Assembly: GCA_963924555.1 (NCBI GenBank)
Contig: OZ004586.1
Location: 248,001-312,000 of the forward strand
Length of the DNA stretch: 64,000 bases
Origin: Crambe crambe
Lineage: Eukaryota > Porifera > Demospongiae > Poecilosclerida > Crambeidae
Direction: 5' to 3'
This document shows, one piece after another, positions 49,478-64,000 of this stretch (its first letter is position 1; each line of letters starts with the position of its first letter). The position numbers were made by a program, and so were the translations under genes. The notes below the pieces were generated by a model. It saw nothing but the letters and a program-made list of their open reading frames with translations. It searched no databases and was not told where the DNA came from.

Positions 49478-52400
49478 ATGTCGGCCAGCGCTGCTACATT
49501 GCAACCGACCACGATCAAGCTAGGATCCGAGGCCATCCATCCTTGCGAAAGTCTGCAAGAAGTTGTCATCACGGATCTGGATCAAGATCTTACTCCGACC
49601 ATGTCCCAGGAGGAGGAGGTGGGAACCCAAGACAAGGCCGTCTGTTATCAGTACTCCTCTACACATTACCAAGAAGCTGTCAATGCTGAATGGAAGAGAC
49701 TGAAAATGGAGAAAACAGCTGAGAGACATAGTCTTCCTCTTGCTGCTGGAGGTGATTGTGCCCAAGGCCGTAATAGTTCAGAGCATCAGTGCGTTTCTGC
49801 ATCTGGTGGAGGGTTGCTGTCATCTTCAGCTGTGGGATCGCAGTCCAGAGGTCATCAGAGACTTTCGGAAACTGATCTTGTTCTGCAGCCATCTCAAGTG
49901 GAAGAGATGCTTGCACAGCAACTGAGCAATGGAGGAGGAGGTGGAGGGAAGGATCAGGCAAGGAGAAGCACATCAAACTCACAGACTTATAGCAGAACTA
50001 ACTCTTCCACATCCACTACTGAAAGTTCTGCACAGATGGAGGAACAGGTCAACCAGCACTCCAGATCGCATTCTTCACCACTTACTCCTCGACGTTCGAG
50101 TCTGTGGGATGGATTCATGATGTGTTTGAGTCCTGTCGTAGGCCTCCTCAAGAAGGAGAAACGACCAATGGAGAAGAAGGATAAGTGGGAAATACCGTTC
50201 GCAGATATCCGAGAACTCAACTTCATTGGGTCTGGCTCCCAAGGTGCTGTGTTCGTTGGTGAGTATTTGAGTGAGAAAGTCGCTGTTAAGAAGATGAAGG
50301 ATGTGGCGTATTGCCAAGAGGCGAGACACCTGAGGAAGTTGAGTCATCCAAACATTGTGAAGTTCAAGTAAGTTTATTATAGGTATTAGCTGCAGCAAGG
50401 GAAATGCTCTGAGTTGCAGCATCTCATGTACACTGAAAGTCGGTCAGCTGTCACAAATTGACTGGAGAGTCACATGACACATTGATGCAATATTAGTTGG
50501 CAGTTTCTGTAAGCCAATGAGAAGTGATTGTTTGCAAGTACATTAGTAGTTCTATGAGGTCAATAAATACCTTTAGCAATAATGATGTCAAATGCTGAGC
50601 TCAGCAATGTGCTTGTATCAGATGGTGTTAGCATAAAGAGAACAAAGTTCCTATCATGCCACTTGTTTGGGGACATGTTGGATGTATTCATCCATCCCTT
50701 TACGGATGAGTCTTTATTTCCTTGTAGAGGAGTTTGCACTGAGCCTCCTTGCTTCTGCTTGGTCCTTGAATACTGCCCTGGGGGCACGCTCTATGACTAC
50801 ATACGATTGGACATCGAGATCCTCCCCCCTCAAGTGGTCGGGTGGGCAAGGCAGATCGGATCTGGCATGCTCTATCTCCACTCCAAGAAAATCATACACA
50901 GAGACCTGAAGTCACTCAAGTAAGTCATGGCATGCAATACAGAAAAATCAGTTAGTTATTTGACTTGAAGATTGCATCATCCCATGGGGAGAAATGGAGG
51001 ACTGGGTGGTACCATTTATAAAAATATAACAACTGGAATAAGGATACCACTCATTTCCCATCCACACCTCCTTACCATTGTATTAAGTGTAATGGGTATT
51101 CATAATAAGGTGATAACTATTGAAGTGTCCACAATAGGGTACACACAATAAGGGTATTCACTATTGGGTAGTCATGATCCCACATCAGTATTGTTTGTGT
51201 CCACACTAGAGACAGTGCCTTTGTATGTGGTCACCACAGTTACCAAATTATAAATATTTATGCCTGTTGCCATGAGATCAAGTCCTAAAGCGATTCATGG
51301 AGGTGTTGTTGGTCACAAGGTTTAATGAATATCAAGAAGGAGTTATGAATGATTATGACCTCTCTCTATCATAGTATTCTTCTCTGCAATAATGATGTCC
51401 TGAAGATCTCTGACTTCGGAGTGAGTCGTCATTTTGGTGAGAAGAGCATGAAGATGACTTTTGTTGGAACGGTTGGGTGGATGTCTCCTGAGATGATTAG
51501 ACATGAGTTGTGCTCGGAGAAGGTGGACATCTGGTCCTACGGTGTCCTGCTCTGGGAGATGCTCATGCAGGAGAAGCCATACAATGTAAGTGAGATATAA
51601 TGTGTTGAGAATCACCACCAAAGAAAGTTGGAGTAACTTTAGCATGTAGGGAGTTAGGAATTTGGAGTCCTCCCTTAGTGACATTTTGTTGAACACAGAA
51701 TTAGGTGTATCGCTATAGCAACCTTTGACATACTTGCAGAATGTGAGTTCCTCTGCAGTGATTTGGGGCGTTGGCAGTAACAGTCTCCACCTCCCCATCC
51801 CCTCGGGCTGTCCAGTGGGTCTCAAAGTCCTCTTGGAAATGTGTTGGTAAGGAATTAGTGGAGGGGCAAAGTCAGTGGAGGGTAAATATGGGTAGTTCAC
51901 AACATGGAGGAGTTGTTAGCAAGACCTTATGCAGTTCAGCATTCAATGGAATAATTAGCTCTTATCAGTTTATGTGGTGGGCATTCTTTATTGTTGTGGG
52001 GGGCACAGGGTTGGCTACTCCAAGGCTATTGATACCAGCAGCTGTGAAAAGTATTTTTCAGTGTCAGCAAAGTCTTGATAGATAATGTGTTTACCATAAG
52101 TGATATATATCTTATGCCTAATTAGTAACAAAAACATCTGTTTGATTGCATTCTCCATTTTGTTTCCTAGGCAACCCAAGCCTAAAAACAGACCATCTTT
52201 CCGGCAGATTCTGATGCATCTTGATCTCGTAGCTGGAGCATTTCTAACCATCCCTCCAGACACTTACCTCATGTCCCAGGCAAGTTCAGCTCACAATAAT
52301 TATGTTGGATGTACAGTGATATTGTTTTGTTTGCAGGAGAGTTGGAGAGGAGAGATAGAGGAGTGTCTTAGCAAGCTTCGTATCGAGGGGATCCCTCCTA

Positions 52401-54677
52401 ATGACTCTGAACTGATCCAGCAGAGGGAGGAGGAACTGAAACATGCTCAAGACGTCCGAGTCATGTACGAGCAGAAGCTGCAGACGGCAGACAAGCTCTA
52501 CAAGGAACTCAAGTCCTGCAAGAGTCAATTGGATGCAAAGGAGTTGGAACTGACAAGGTGAGAGAGTTAGTTAATGGTAACTAGGCTCCCTTTCAAACCT
52601 CTGGAACAGGATAAGCACATCCTTCCTGTGCCCACTCATTATGACCTTAAAGAGTATACAGAAACACTATATAAATGCATTCATGCTATGACCTCATTGG
52701 ATCCCATCTTCTCTGTTTTAAGAAGAAGGGCTACATCACCATTGAAAGTTTCCTAGGGATGGTGGGTGGAAAAATGAACCAGAAATGATCTTCATTACTT
52801 GTTTGCTGTTTCCAGACGGGAGAGACAGCTGAATGACACAACATATAAGATGAAGCGTCAATCTGCAGGTGGGGGTTTCCCCCATCACACAGCACTTGAT
52901 TGTGGGACGACTGACAGCAGTGATAATGAAGAGGACGGGACATTCCAACCACACGTGCCCACCATCAAATCATATGACTCACCAGGAGGACGCAAGAGGG
53001 TGTGGCGTCGGAAGAGAAAATCAAGCCAGTCCAAGGAAGACAAAGTTAAAGAATCGTCAGGATTTCTGGACAGGGTTCAGAACTCTGACCTCCTCGCTCG
53101 GAGAGAGTCCCTCCCCCCACTCAATAGTCTGATGACAACCACACATGCCCCTCACCACCTCTCCAAGCACAACCCGTCCACTCACTCCCTCCTCGATGAA
53201 CCAGCTGTGTTGGATACTTTCAGTCGAGACTCCACCCCCCGTCCAAGACACCCGACCACACCCCTTGCACCGGACGGCAGTTTCTCTCCTGAAGTGACCG
53301 AACTGATCGAAAGTGTTCGTCACCCACGTGGTCACCGTAGAAACGGATCCAATGGTTCCTTGAGGACTCATAAGAGACAAGGGTCAAGTGGATCAACCGC
53401 TAGCTCCAAGGGAGTGTTCGCAGATACCATGCCCCTCAGACCTCAGTCTCGTTCCAGTACCAATCTGAATAATACTCCAGTCAGACCTCAGTGTGGTACC
53501 AATCTCAGCAGCAGTCGAGTCAGTACTGCACATTCCAGTAAAAGAGGTTCACTTGAGCACACTCCATCACGTAGAGGGTCAGGTTCTGGAATTCCATACT
53601 CCAAGATGGATTCGTCCGATTCTGAGTCCAGTAGTTATAAAGAATCGAACATATCTACGTCTGTTGGCATCGGAAGTGGACTACAAGACTCAGTGGCCAA
53701 TCATTCTACTGGAGAGGACAGCAGTGGCAACATGGGAAGTAAATCTTCCATCGAAGACAAGAAGTCATCCCCTAAGGCTACCAGTCATCAGGGTCTCTAT
53801 AGCAACGAGAGCAGCATGGATACCCACGGGTCAGATGGAGATGGACATGATGCTGATGGAGAGTCCACCAGTGACGGCTATGAAAACCGGTTTGACCGGT
53901 TCAGTGGGACAGAGCCTAATGAGACCACGGAGTCTAATATCGAGTCTTCAGTAGCTTCTCCCTCCCAAGCAGAAAGTGACGAATTGACCTCGTGTTCCAC
54001 CCCAGACATAACAGAATCGGACATCACCTCCAGTCTCATTCCGAAAATCCATTCCAGTAGAACTGATTATAAGAATGTAACTGTGATGAGTACGACTGTA
54101 TCCAGTCATCCACCACCACCAACTAATGAAAGGGGCTCCCCTGGAACTACCCACAAGACTGATCTCTTTGTTTCAGGGAACATGCTCACATACGCACCAC
54201 AAATAGTACACTCCAACAGCTGGCAGGAGCTCACACCCCCTAGCAACACCCATAGCAAAGTCCAAGTCTCCTCAATGGTGTCGCAGTTTGAGAATAGTGG
54301 ACCACAATCGACTGAGCCAACAAGTTCAACCAGTTTGACCATTCCTGTGCACATTCGACGTGTGCAGAGCCCAGAAAGAAAGGACGACAGTAAGTGGACT
54401 TGTTTGGTGATATTAATATTGGAACCCTTTACCTATTATTGCAGTGGAGAGTTAGTTACACTAATATCAGGACTATTGACTAGATATCTCTCTCCCCTTC
54501 ACTCCAGGTGGCTCTGTAACGCCAACCATAGCCAAGCCTAAGATAAATTCCATGACTGCCATTGTTCGGAGTTTCTTTGAGAACATGTCCAAGAAGTCTA
54601 AGAGTAGTGGTAACCATCTCCAACACTCTGCTGAGCTGGAAGACAGTGGCTTCCAGGTAGAAGACTCACAGGATTAG
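49478..54677 (+). CDS. DLK/LZK-type mixed-lineage MAP3K
   Basis: Single bilaterian MAP3K12/MAP3K13-type kinase acting upstream of JNK/p38 in stress and neuronal injury responses. Exon 1 is 49478-50367, exon 2 50728-50919, then exons near 51375-51586, 51741-51842, 52171-52278, 52337-52558, 52816-54388 and 54509-54677. Kinase features: glycine loop [11 protein letters not shown], lysine in [37 protein letters not shown], and the family blocks [17 protein letters not shown] and [14 protein letters not shown]. After the kinase lies a coiled coil ([18 protein letters not shown] ... [14 protein letters not shown]), then about 500 Ser/Thr-rich residues in one long exon. All catalytic residues are present. 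I cannot say DLK versus LZK; it may predate that split. A decayed copy lies 9-10 kb downstream. Confidence 0.92.
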
Positions 54678-55281: not shown

Positions 55282-58200
55282 CTAACAGTGTGAGTGGAAA
55301 TAATCCACCACTTCACTGTGACCCTCTGCTTGGGCCAGCTGGAGTGGAGTCTTGTTAAACATGTTTCTGATGTTTGGGGAGCAATGGAGATGTTCGATGA
55401 AATACTTGATAGTTGCAAGTTGACCATACTCTGCTGCCCAGTGAAGTGGAGTTCCAAGATCTTTGTCTTGTAACATAGCGTTGCATCCTTTGACTTCAGT
55501 TAGATATCGGATGATGGATAGGTGTCCATCAATGGCTGCAATATGTAAAGGTGTAGAATTGTTGTCATCCAGAGAATTGGGGTCACAGGCATGATTCTCT
55601 ATGAGATTCTTGATAAGGTGGAGGTGACCTTCTTGTGAAGCATAGTGAAGTGGTCGTCTTCCATACTGACCAGGAACATTAGGATTGCACTGCATAATGT
55701 TTATTAAATAGTCACAAACATCACTATGTCCATTACGGGCTGCAAGGTGAAGTGGTGGTGTGCTGTTCCACTTGTTCCTACAGAGAGGATCACACCTCAT
55801 GTCTTCACATAGGTATTGCACTATTGATAAGTGCCCATTCTGTGCAGCATAATGTAGGGGGGTGGCATGCACATCATTTCTACTCTCAGGGTCACACCCA
55901 CACTCCATTATCAGGAACTTGACAATGGACAAATGACCCTGTTGTGTGGCAGCACGGAGAGGACCTCCACCAAGCACACCACTAGAAAGGATGGGGTCAC
56001 AATTGCAGTCGTGGATAAAATATTTCAATATATTGATGTGACCACGCAGAGCTGCAATGTGGATGGGAGAAGTCCGATGCTTTGTAAAATCCTTGAAAAT
56101 ATCTTCCATCTTCATGAAGGTCAGCATTGTCTCCATCAAGTACTTCACTACTTTTAAATTTCCACCTATACAAGCTCTGTGTAGAGGTGAGGTACCTTCC
56201 TCGTCCTGCTCAAGGGGATCGACTTGGTGCTTTTCGACTAGATACTGTACTATGTTGAGATGACCTGCTTCAGCTGCTTGGTGTAATGGTGTTGTTCCTT
56301 GCCAGCCTAACACAGATGGGTTGCATAGCTCATTCTCAATCAGGTGCTCAAGCACTTCCAACTTTCCATAAAAAGCTGCTTCATGTACAGGTGCATTATT
56401 GTTCGCATCTTTTGTTAAGGGGTTGAGTCCTTTTGTGATGAGACGCTTCACTTCTTCCAGGTCTCCTATTTCGGCAGCATGATGCAATTCCAAGCTCTGC
56501 TTGGTGGTGGTTTCTGCTGAGACTATCATGTCCAGTCGTGGGTCCTTCAAGTCTCTCCCAACATAGTCCTGTCATGTGAGGGAAGGAAATTCTCACTCTA
56601 GTACTAACATAATAGAGGAATTGTTGACTTATTAGCTATAGAAGTCTGGAAATTTATGGACTGTGCCACAGACATTACAACCATTGTTTACAAGTAACAG
56701 CAATTAGAATTAAATTAATCAAGTACAAATAAGCCGTAACCATGGATATTAAAATTAGGTGTGAGTAGAATTACTATGCTCCATTGTTTTCTTGATCTCC
56801 AATTATGCTTCTTAAAAATTGTTCCATATGTAGCAATAAATTTATCAGCGTTGAAGATATTCTTCTCTCATTAAATGAATTGCCTATTAAGCTCAATTAT
56901 GCCCTAAAGTTATTATGTCTAAATGTAAAAGAATATGCTACATCATTTATTCCTCCTTAATTATTGAATTAGGTAGAACTAGTAGCACGTTGATATTCTT
57001 ACGTTAGGGGAATGATGATTTTAAAATCCTTACCTGGAACACAGACATTACAACCATTGTTTACAAGTAACAGAAATTAAAAAAATACATTGAAACTAAA
57101 TACAAATAAGCTGTAACCATGGATATTAAAATTAGTAAAAACCTGATGTAAATGAATATGCTTCCAAATAATATGTTTTTATATTAGGAGGAATGATGAC
57201 TTGTAAAATACTTACCTGGAACTCATCAGAGATATAGGTCCCGAGTCCTGATGTGAATATGTTTCCACCATCATCTGAGTGAGTGGCAATACCTGTTCCA
57301 GTGATGTCACTAACTGCACCAGATGCTGAGTCAGCATCATCATCACCATCTCTACCCTTCACCTTAAGGGCAGCCATTCCCCCCACTAGAGAGAGGACAG
57401 GGTCTGGGTAGGAGAAGAGACATCAGATGACATCTAATACCAATGGAGAGAACTCACCTTTTCCCTTATCATCAGTTGAGACCTGAGAAGAAAGATCGAG
57501 ACTCTGGTCTCCATAGCTGATATTCACGAACCCCAGACTTTGCAGAGCAAGCGGTTGTTCTTCAGTAATAACATCTATCATGTTGTTATCCAAAGTTCGG
57601 TATTTCATCTTGCAACCTTCATCAATATGTAGCAGTCGTAACACTGGACCTCCCAATGCAATTTTCATCCTTTTCTCTAGTTTTTCGAATTCTTCAATGG
57701 TCATTTTGTCAAGTTCTATTTCACATTTCAGAGAGAGAACTTTTTCTGATTTCTCTGCATTACCAAATGCATTACTTGGACATTCACAAACTCGTCTTTT
57801 AGAATACTCCTGGATCTTTTGTTTAAAACTTTTAAGTGCCTTTTTATTTTCCCTTCCACCAAATTTCTTAATCCAAAGCTTTATGATATGATGATCATGA
57901 AAAGAACAAAATCTAGCCACTCTGCGAAAAGCTTCAGTTATTGTATCAGAACCTTCCAACAATTCTTCTTCAAAATTCATATCATGAAATTTAAGGAGGC
58001 TTAGAAAGTCATCGAATGTGTACAATTCTCGTACAGACTTTTGAAGACCAAGGATGAGGTTAACAAATCTTATTTTCATCTGTTCAGTATCTTTGTAAAG
58101 CTGATTCATTTTAATCTTTTTTTCATCTTCTGACATTCCATGAGTAGAGAGAAAAGGAAAATGTGGAATAAGTTCCACAAGACTTAGCACTGAAAAATTA

Positions 58201-59021
58201 TAGTTATTAACACTTAGCATAGAAACTCTTCAAACAACATACCTGAACTGGAGCATGAACTGACAGTAGAGGCAGCAGATTCTTGATATTGAATTTTAAG
58301 TTGACCTGTTAAAGTAACAGTGAGAATTGTACTTCATAGTTAGCCAATCTTTACCTTGTGCAATCTTTTGAGCAAGTCCTTCATGACCAATAGTTCTGAG
58401 TGCTTTCATCAAGCTCTCCCAGGTGGGTTTACCACTCTCCTTCGTCACATTATCTTGCTGATTGAGCCAAGCCGAAACCATATCTTCACGAAGAGGGTTC
58501 ATCATCTTCAAGTTGTTATACTGAAGACCCAGTGCTAAACCCAACCGTATCAAGTGTTCTGGAAGTAGAGTTCCCAAATATTGGGTGACTTCAAAGAGAT
58601 CATTCACTGTTAGTTGTGCTACAAAAGACAAACAAATGAAAAACAAACAAAAAACAAAAACAAAACAAAAAGGTGAAGAGATGGATGAGCTGAAGTAACA
58701 GTGTATGGGGAACTTGATATTGTTAGACTTACTCTCTGGGCCTGGGTTAGATTCGACATCACCACAGAGTATCAAGAGAGAGGGGAGAACTGTCTGTGCA
58801 AAGGACAGGTTGAAAATGGAGCCATGATCCCCCAGATCAGATTGAACACAGAAGGTATTTGATGTGGGGGAAGAGAGATCACCAACAAGCACTGGATAAA
58901 GAAAGGATGAGTGTCTAGTCATCACTAAAAGAAGTTGGAAAATACTTATTTTTCTCTTATGTGTAGGCAGGAAATAAAAACATAGTTGCATACCTTTGAA
59001 GGTTTTTTCAGCTTCTTTCAT
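55282..59021 (-). CDS. 2A-leader / death domain / ankyrin-repeat protein
   Basis: Exons, minus strand: 58995-59021 or longer, about 58735-58891, 58355-58620, about 58242-58304, 57459-58191, about 57217-57388, 55282-56571; phases agree. The leader ends LPSLLILC then GDVESNPGP, the full D-V-E-x-N-P-G-P ribosome-skipping motif with the usual hydrophobic lead-in. A death domain follows (LTVNDLFEVTQYLGTLLPEH ... KPTWESLMKALRTIGHEGLA). Next is a 240-residue helical region I do not recognise (KIRFVNLILGLQKSVRELYT ... WIKKFGG ... FEKLEKRMKIALGGPVLRLL), an acidic linker, and about 11-12 ankyrin repeats in one exon (GTTPLHQAAEAGHLNIVQYL and so on), ending at a stop after HSEVVDYFHSHC. The first exon is uncertain; ATG 59021 is the earliest in-frame Met found, giving a leader of about 62 residues. 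Known 2A motifs in echinoderm and sponge NLR proteins act similarly; the immune or cell-death role here is inferred. Confidence 0.8.
56640..57135. repeat. Local direct duplication in the ankyrin/linker intron
   Basis: The segment at about 56660-56760 (cagacattacaaccattgtt ... ccatggatattaaaattag) recurs at 57043-57136. The donor-like text gaatgatgattttaaaatccttacctggaac (split at 57010-57040) resembles the true exon edge at 57188-57222. This suggests duplication of an exon flank. Confidence 0.7.
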
Positions 59022-62554: not shown

Positions 62555-64000
62555 GGAGTTATGAGTGATTATGACCTCTCTCTATCATAGTATTCTTCTC
62601 TGCAATAACGATGTCCTGAAGATCTCTGATTTCGGAGTGAGTCGTCATTTTGGTGAGAAGAGCATGAAGATGATTTTTGTTGGAACGGTTGGGTGGATGT
62701 CTCCTGAGATGATTAGACACGAGTTGTGCTCGGAGAAGGTGGACATCTGGTCCTGCTCTGGGAGATGCTCATGCAGAAGAAGCCATACAATGTAAGTGAA
62801 ATACAAAAGAAGGTTGGAGTAACTCTAGCATATAGGGAGTTTGGAATTTGGAGTCTTCCTTTAGTGACTTTCAACAAATTGACATTTTGTTGAACACAGC
62901 ATTAGGTGTATCGCTATAGCAACCTTTGACTCTACTTTGCATACTTGCAGAATGTGAGTTCCTCTGCAGTGATTTGGGGCGTTGGTAGTAACAGTCTCCA
63001 TCTCCCCATCCCCTCGGGCTGTCCAGTGGGTCTCAAAGTCCTCTTGGAAATGTGTTGGCAAGGAATTAGTGGAGGGCAAAGTCAGTGGAGGGTAAATATG
63101 GGTAGTTGGAGTTGTTAGCAAGATCTTATGCAGTTCAGCATTCAATGGACAGTAATTAGCTCTTACCAGTTTATGTGGTTGGCATTCTTTATTATTGTGG
63201 GGGCAGCAGCTGTGAAAAAACAGCCCTCAGGTATTTTGCAGTGTCAGCAAAGTCTAGATAATGTGTTTACCATAAGTGATAGCTTAATTAGTAACAAAAA
63301 AACATCTGTTTGATTGCATTCTCCATTTTGTTTCCTAGGCAACCCAAGCCTAAAAACAGACCCTCTTTCCGGCAGATTTTGATGCATCTTGATCTCGTAG
63401 CTGGAGCATTTCTAACCATCCCTCATGTCCCAGGCAAGCTTCAGCTCACAATAATTATGTTGGATGTACAGTGATATTGTTTGGTTTGCAGGAGAGTTGG
63501 AGAGGTGAGATAGAGGAGTGTCTTAGCAAGCTTCGTATCAAGGGGATCCCCCTAATAACTCTGAACTGATCCAGCAGAGGGAGGAGGAACTGAAACATGC
63601 TCAAGACATCCGAGTCATGTACGAGCAGAAGCTGCAGACGGCAGACAAGCTCTACAAGGAACTCAAGTCCTGCAAGAGTCAATTGGATGCAAAGGAGTTG
63701 GAACTGACAAGGTGAGAGAGTTAGTTAATGGTAACTAGGCTCCCTTTCAAACCTCTGGAACAGGATAAGCACGTCCTTCCTGTGCCCACTCATTATGACC
63801 TTAAAGAGTATACAGAAACACTATATAAATGCATCCATGCTATGACCTCATTGGATCCCATCTTCTCTATTTTAAGAAGAAGGGTTATATCATCATTCTA
63901 GGGATGGTGGGTGGAAAAATGAACCAGAAATGATCTTCATTACTTGTTTGCTGTTTCCAGATGGGAGAGACAGCTGAATGACACAACATATAGGATGAAG

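Follow-up and report, generated by a model that had tools for sequence, protein, structure and literature searches.

We detected, in a 64,000-nt stretch of the genome of the sponge Crambe crambe (hereafter the window; C9:248001-312000), an exon that probably functions as an L-rich 2A (StopGo) element and so provides a host gene family with a co-translationally removable N-terminal leader. The core of this element is under sequence constraint, and throughout the genome 2A motifs are associated with death domains (DDs). The position of the leader before many death-domain genes suggests that the encoded proteins may be cut free of it during synthesis.

The original prediction had placed at 58735..58891, with no strand named, an exon reading LPSLLILC and then GDVESNPGP. 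Both are present on the minus strand, where these coordinates read ...FNLSFAQTVLPSLLILCGDVESNPGPE, and frame 1 of the plus strand has stops; the exon exists as described and really spans 58733-58891, 2 nt longer than proposed. Its octapeptide DVESNPGP (58737-58760, minus strand) is the sole such motif in the six frames of the window and fits the 2A core pattern (D/G/C/N)(V/I)ExNPGP, and the lead-in LPSLLILCG-D fits the L-rich motif class in which (A/S/C)G precedes D at p12. Flanked by the acceptor ttctttatccag and the donor gtaagtct, the 159-nt exon is in phase 1 on both sides, and predicted splice sites join it in frame to a 264-nt death-domain-type exon at 58355-58618, the in-phase junction that had been expected. 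The resulting 906-aa splice-site model comprises a leader, a death domain, a module without a Pfam match and ankyrin repeats (PF12796, E 1.3e-91 by Pfam), which agrees with the DD-ankyrin partner foreseen, and its leader of 60 aa up to the Gly of NPG likewise agrees with the estimate of about 60 residues. The 2A in this model is N-terminal to the death domain, which was called through relatives and a profile. The features of the gene are as follows:

58994..59021, minus strand: first coding exon, MKEAEKTFK-, with phase-1 donor GGTATGC (splice-site model; ATG and GGTA donor in 27/27 aligned C9 paralog leaders)
58733..58891, minus strand: 2A leader exon, 159 nt, phase 1-1 (translation, splice-site model, paralog alignment)
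58761..58787, minus strand: L-rich lead-in LPSLLILCG (six-frame reading, leader comparison)
58737..58760, minus strand: 2A core octapeptide DVESNPGP, with the predicted skip between Gly and Pro (six-frame reading, genome pattern search)
58355..58618, minus strand: death-domain exon, 264 nt, phase 1-1 (splice-site model, Pfam on relatives, profile)
58243..58305, minus strand: short linker exon, 63 nt, phase 1-1 (splice sites only)
57458..58189, minus strand: exon of a module without a Pfam match, by eye like the modules behind the 2A-DD exons of L070, L071, L074 and L083 (splice-site model, Pfam)
57216..57403, minus strand: acidic linker exon, phase 1 to 0 (splice-site model)
55282..56568, minus strand: ankyrin-repeat exon with stop codon (Pfam, splice-site model)

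All 27 copies of the leader on C9 retain the first-exon ATG, the donor, the acceptor and the core, and in one of them (L035) indels of 10 and 5 nt in exon 1 and the leader cancel in frame. A second in-frame ATG (58922) was considered as the usual start and rejected: an ATG stands there or one codon earlier in only 6 of the 27 paralog leaders (L009, L010, L012, L014, L018 and L032), versus 27/27 for the ATG of the first exon. The 114-nt intron between the 2A and DD exons is itself open and in frame in the window copy (293-aa ORF), so the reading frame of this copy is independent of splicing; the unspliced frame of several paralogs closes shortly past NPGP.

The death-domain exon of the window matched no Pfam family at E<=0.1 and so did not reach the cut-off of PF00531, and we therefore relied on its relatives and on a profile. 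The PF00531 cut-off of 22.6 bits was passed by the DD regions of two of eight relatives (L070, 28.0; L073, 24.9), those of L074 (16.2 bits) and L071 (17.3 bits) fell below it, and Pfam Death was absent from the four DD regions of L081, L083, L086 and L087. Profile A1, built from 12 DD exons including that of the window, matched the solved structures of FADD (E 5e-4), RIPK1 (0.0026), PIDD (0.02) and TNFR1 (0.42). Folded as a single sequence, the exon gave six helices at low confidence (pLDDT 61.5); the best Foldseek matches of this model were mostly death domains, none of them significant, headed by the DD of p75NTR at E 0.7.

A search of the 143-Mb genome with the pattern D[VIM]ExNPGP returned 208 exact sites (91+117) and none for the reversed-pattern control, which excludes a chance origin. 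When one mismatch was allowed, 238 sites were found (control 4), that is, 208 intact versus 30 one-off sites, and these 30 may be functional 2A variants or decayed copies. The original prediction had treated cellular 2A motifs as rare, which does not apply to this genome, where 2A is a genome-wide module with various partners. Used as a protein query at E<=4e-15, the leader exon recovered 27 copies on C9, most of which belong to a single tandem array. A DD was located within 4 kb downstream in sense of at least 107 of the 200 listed 2A sites (200 of the 208 were listed), as opposed to 4/200 with a same-strand DD upstream and 1/200 with an antisense DD among the matches listed. The figure of 107/200 is a lower bound because DD places came from the best ~150 scored candidates per list, plus 4 beside C5 2A sites, and comparison of the lists by eye added 10 more of the 200 (L037, L038, L048, L050, L051, L052, L054, L055, L082 and L085). 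Counting against our best explanation, 93/200 listed sites had no DD among the matches listed. Viewed from the DD places, a 2A lay within 4 kb, among the matches listed, in 43/131 (19 leader rows excluded; 150 of 160 matches listed), 27/115 (115 of 120 rows) and 35/150 (150 rows), and since most have none nearby, which likewise counts against our best explanation, 2A marks some DD families and not all.

Where individual loci were examined with the DD profile, a match followed downstream in sense in 26/27 C9 copies and in 27/52 other loci, and the sole other matches of 8 bits or more in these loci were a pair of antisense pieces in L077 (17.9 and 14.0 bits). The DD of L075 is ~3.3 kb off (L091). 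Nine leaders that form a group on C1 (L039-L047; C1 3.55-3.99 Mb) had no DD by profile in the stretch examined; these leaders end in LLLLSGDVELNPGP and have a strongly hydrophobic stretch, and in L039 together with L089 we saw no DD but, by eye, Ig-like regions. Also counting against our best explanation, three relatives of the leader on C5 stop short of the 2A core; the one of them that was read, L036 (C5:5100578-5103697), has lost the core at a TC repeat and has no DD in the 3 kb examined. A leader relative on C10 with a DD behind it (G000:C10:4395924 and 4396377) is not in the exact 2A list and may represent a natural variant of the 2A core.

Comparison of 57 distinct leader ends, drawn from 79 rows, revealed fixed positions beyond those of the search pattern: L(-5) and G(-1) were each present in 57/57, position -2 was only ever C (22), A (18) or S (17), and L(-3) was found in 51. 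A donor-like site past the core, sought with a loose pattern, occurred in 49/57 distinct leaders, all 49 in phase 1, and none was found in the other 8. Pairwise dN/dS among 24 C9 leaders (the 27 without L032, L034 and L035, which carry indels) fell from 1.00 in codons 1-27 to 0.43 in codons 28-44 and 0.08 in the core; for the DD exon it was 0.51 in 20/27 exons, those caught by a regular expression. Parsimony in the same leaders, for which the tree came from the flanking introns and DD region, counted nonsynonymous to synonymous changes of 37:16 in codons 1-27, 6:3 in codons 28-38 and 2:9 in codons 39-53, where one of the two nonsynonymous changes falls at the free x position; codons 1-27 and 39-53 differed at p 0.002 (one-sided Fisher test, codons 28-38 left out). 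The 6:3 ratio shows no constraint by parsimony in codons 28-38, which counts against our best explanation, and the apparent constraint on the core comes from few C9 substitutions and can be mimicked by gene conversion within a tandem array. The first half of the leader drifts neutrally, and the leader in the window's family is therefore better seen as a disposable N-terminus than as a product. The role of the leader may differ between leader families, and that of another family is conserved among its public relatives. Membrane targeting is weakly supported for the window gene because its leader has just a short hydrophobic stretch (Kyte-Doolittle mean 1.69 over 17 residues) that is not N-terminal.

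Residues 1-420 of the gene product had no match among public proteins at E<=0.001 (7992 candidates scored), but searches with leader and leader+DD alignments did give matches. Of 225 public proteins, 176 contained the 2A core and 20 had a 2A followed by a DD-profile match, mostly weak; two of the public proteins, P0025 and P0026, are members of the same leader family as the window gene. In P0165 (Halichondria panicea LOC135343203 isoform X2; ...LLMLLILAGDVETNPGPVHKLTLSNLYEELLEL...), 2A stands directly before a DD-like region that the DD profile matched at i-E 2.3e-5 among the 225 proteins. Since the single match of P0165 in this genome is weak (32% identity), 2A and DD seem to be arranged in this way in a second sponge too, where the leader is unrelated. 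P0165 matched Pfam Death only at E 0.18, which counts against our best explanation; a phmmer search with it found no solved structure. We also observed a tandem pair of 2A or 2A-like motifs inside one short ORF in the public proteins P0023, P0030, P0031 and P0178, and 2A followed by a PHD finger (PF00628) in P0062, P0077 and P0198, the last under the cut-off.

The partners encoded downstream are diverse. Pfam identified NACHT in L069 (E 4.3e-14) and NB-ARC in L078 (E 1e-8), the latter with a TPR match just under its cut-off (E 3e-6); by eye, we found Ig-like regions behind the 2A/DD in L070, L073 and L083 and a Roc-like GTPase in L086. Ankyrin partners were detected by Pfam in the window gene and by eye in L071. 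Considered as an NLR, the window gene has no NACHT match, its 268-aa ORF is without a Pfam match and its last exon contains ankyrin repeats. In the window gene, neither of the two long ORFs downstream of the 2A gave a reverse transcriptase or endonuclease by Pfam (other loci were assessed by ORF reading), and reading the window sequence as a transposon exon is unsupported since Pfam finds no retrotransposon protein in these ORFs. Downstream of the 2A of L051, long low-complexity repeats of the GGQMMRGQQQ type and a poly-Gln run lie behind a DD-like ORF.

Some of this evidence could also be read in other ways. The leader may itself be a functional product, which would make the gene a two-protein unit in which 2A produces both; we regard this as unlikely. 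A different leader family in this genome does have long leaders (92-139 aa in the public copies P0001-P0008), the WW motif and 2A are found in 9/9 rows of that family and its public relatives with Cys positions partly common, and P0171, P0175, P0181 and P0190 are 43-47% identical to P0004, but in the window's own family leader codons 1-27 evolve at a dN/dS of about 1 and some copies carry indels there. Two forms could also arise by splicing rather than skipping of the ribosome, as omission of the 159-nt phase 1-1 exon keeps the frame and would yield a leaderless DD protein, with the 2A motif secondary. This is very unlikely, as it leaves unexplained both why G(-1) and L(-5) are invariant from one leader family to another and why P0165 joins 2A to a DD-like region within a single protein.

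Less likely still is that the motif is an inactive relic of a retrotransposon or virus that spread by gene duplication. Such an origin would suit the 2A-PHD-finger proteins P0062 and P0077, which we take to be retrotransposon-like, as well as the C9 copies, mostly within one tandem array, but it fits poorly with 208 intact versus 30 one-mismatch copies, with the 9 synonymous and 2 nonsynonymous changes in C9 codons 39-53 (one at the free x position) and with two long downstream ORFs in which Pfam finds no reverse transcriptase. The least probable of these readings is that the conserved stretch serves solely as a signal sequence or signal anchor and has been maintained for targeting, not for recoding: all 57 distinct leaders have an L-rich stretch ahead of the core, with 17-residue hydropathy means of up to 3.1 in some families, but these means are just 0.6-1.5 in ten C5-group leaders and 0.9-1.0 in eleven P0001-like leaders, and signal peptides need no invariant DxExNPGP after their hydrophobic part.

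If the exon is a working 2A element, most ribosomes would release a 60-aa leader ending in ...ESNPG and continue into a cytosolic death-domain/ankyrin protein starting with Pro. The remaining ribosomes would make an uncut protein in which the hydrophobic stretch adjoins the death domain, where it would direct the protein to, or hold it at, the membrane, or hinder assembly of the death domain. We infer both skipping and these two product fates, and with them a role in immunity or cell death. A broader reading, which we offer tentatively and consider somewhat unlikely, is that 2A may be a general exon module in more than 100 DD genes, in which an interchangeable phase-1 leader exon is combined with sensor halves of the ankyrin, NACHT, NB-ARC-TPR, Ig or Roc-like GTPase type and acts as a translational gate on intracellular immune receptors. 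Each receptor would then be born as two molecules, and the ratio of cut to uncut protein, depending on elongation and release factors, would enable the cell to detect translational stress, for instance during viral infection. The 208 intact copies, with more than half of the listed ones before a death domain, provide natural variants of one 2A class and make it a testable idea that animals determine where immune-type signalling proteins begin and where they are located by means of ribosome skipping.

Rao 2025 (Cell Rep), as cited in PMC12846837, reportedly used profiles to survey the proteomes of viruses and cells for 2A, and sponge cases may already be included there. Among the titles and abstract starts of the matches listed, our literature search found 2A in sea-urchin NLRs and in retrotransposons, and none on sponge 2A, including the sponge NLRs named in the original prediction; as far as the literature searched shows, the scale, the modular exon and the non-NLR partners are new. 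Judging from its title, Odon 2013 reportedly describes virus-like 2A in APE-type non-LTR retrotransposons of cellular genomes; unlike these elements, the window motif is followed by two long ORFs without a retrotransposon protein.

According to the available excerpts of PMC4981915, N-terminal 2A is already known in sea-urchin NLRs. SpNLR2A of Strongylocentrotus purpuratus, like the window gene, places a 2A near the N-terminus of a DEATH-domain immune-type protein behind a hydrophobic lead-in, and both occur in many gene copies (SpNLR2A in 85/241 NLRs). Unlike SpNLR2A, the window 2A has a DD-ankyrin partner with no NACHT match, and it closes a separate phase-1 exon with a 60-aa leader, compared with 26-aa N-termini in the 14 given in those excerpts. 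SpNLR2A6 showed ~80% skipping in vitro, a qualitative estimate, and its uncut product enters the exocytic pathway (PMC4981915); by hydropathy, the window leader may have a similar signal activity. The excerpts of PMC12846837 describe L-rich StopGo motifs 2 and 6 of RNA viruses, which end in (A/S/C)G before D at p12, with motif 6 active in vitro; the window motif shares the L-rich lead-in, this ending, D at p12 and S at p15, but is cellular and stands before host death domains and not in a viral polyprotein.

The portion available of the Dysidea avara NLR repertoire (PMC12909245) describes sponge expansions of DEATH-domain and NACHT proteins, with transmembrane domains in NLR architectures, and 'NPGP', 'signal peptide', 'ribosom' and 'skipping' are all absent from its main text. 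In the parts available of two further sources, NLRs are named as the cellular case of 2A (PMC11512398), and sponges are mentioned in connection with frameshifting in mitochondria, and StopGo in connection with cardioviruses and one secretion-signal case (PMC5009743); in those of PMC5890393 and PMC9925728, the 2A-type and sponge words are parts of unrelated gene names. Elsewhere in the window, a kinase-type C-terminal segment occurs twice on the plus strand in near-identical form, at 52100-52561 and ~63340-63720, the second copy reaching the end of the window.
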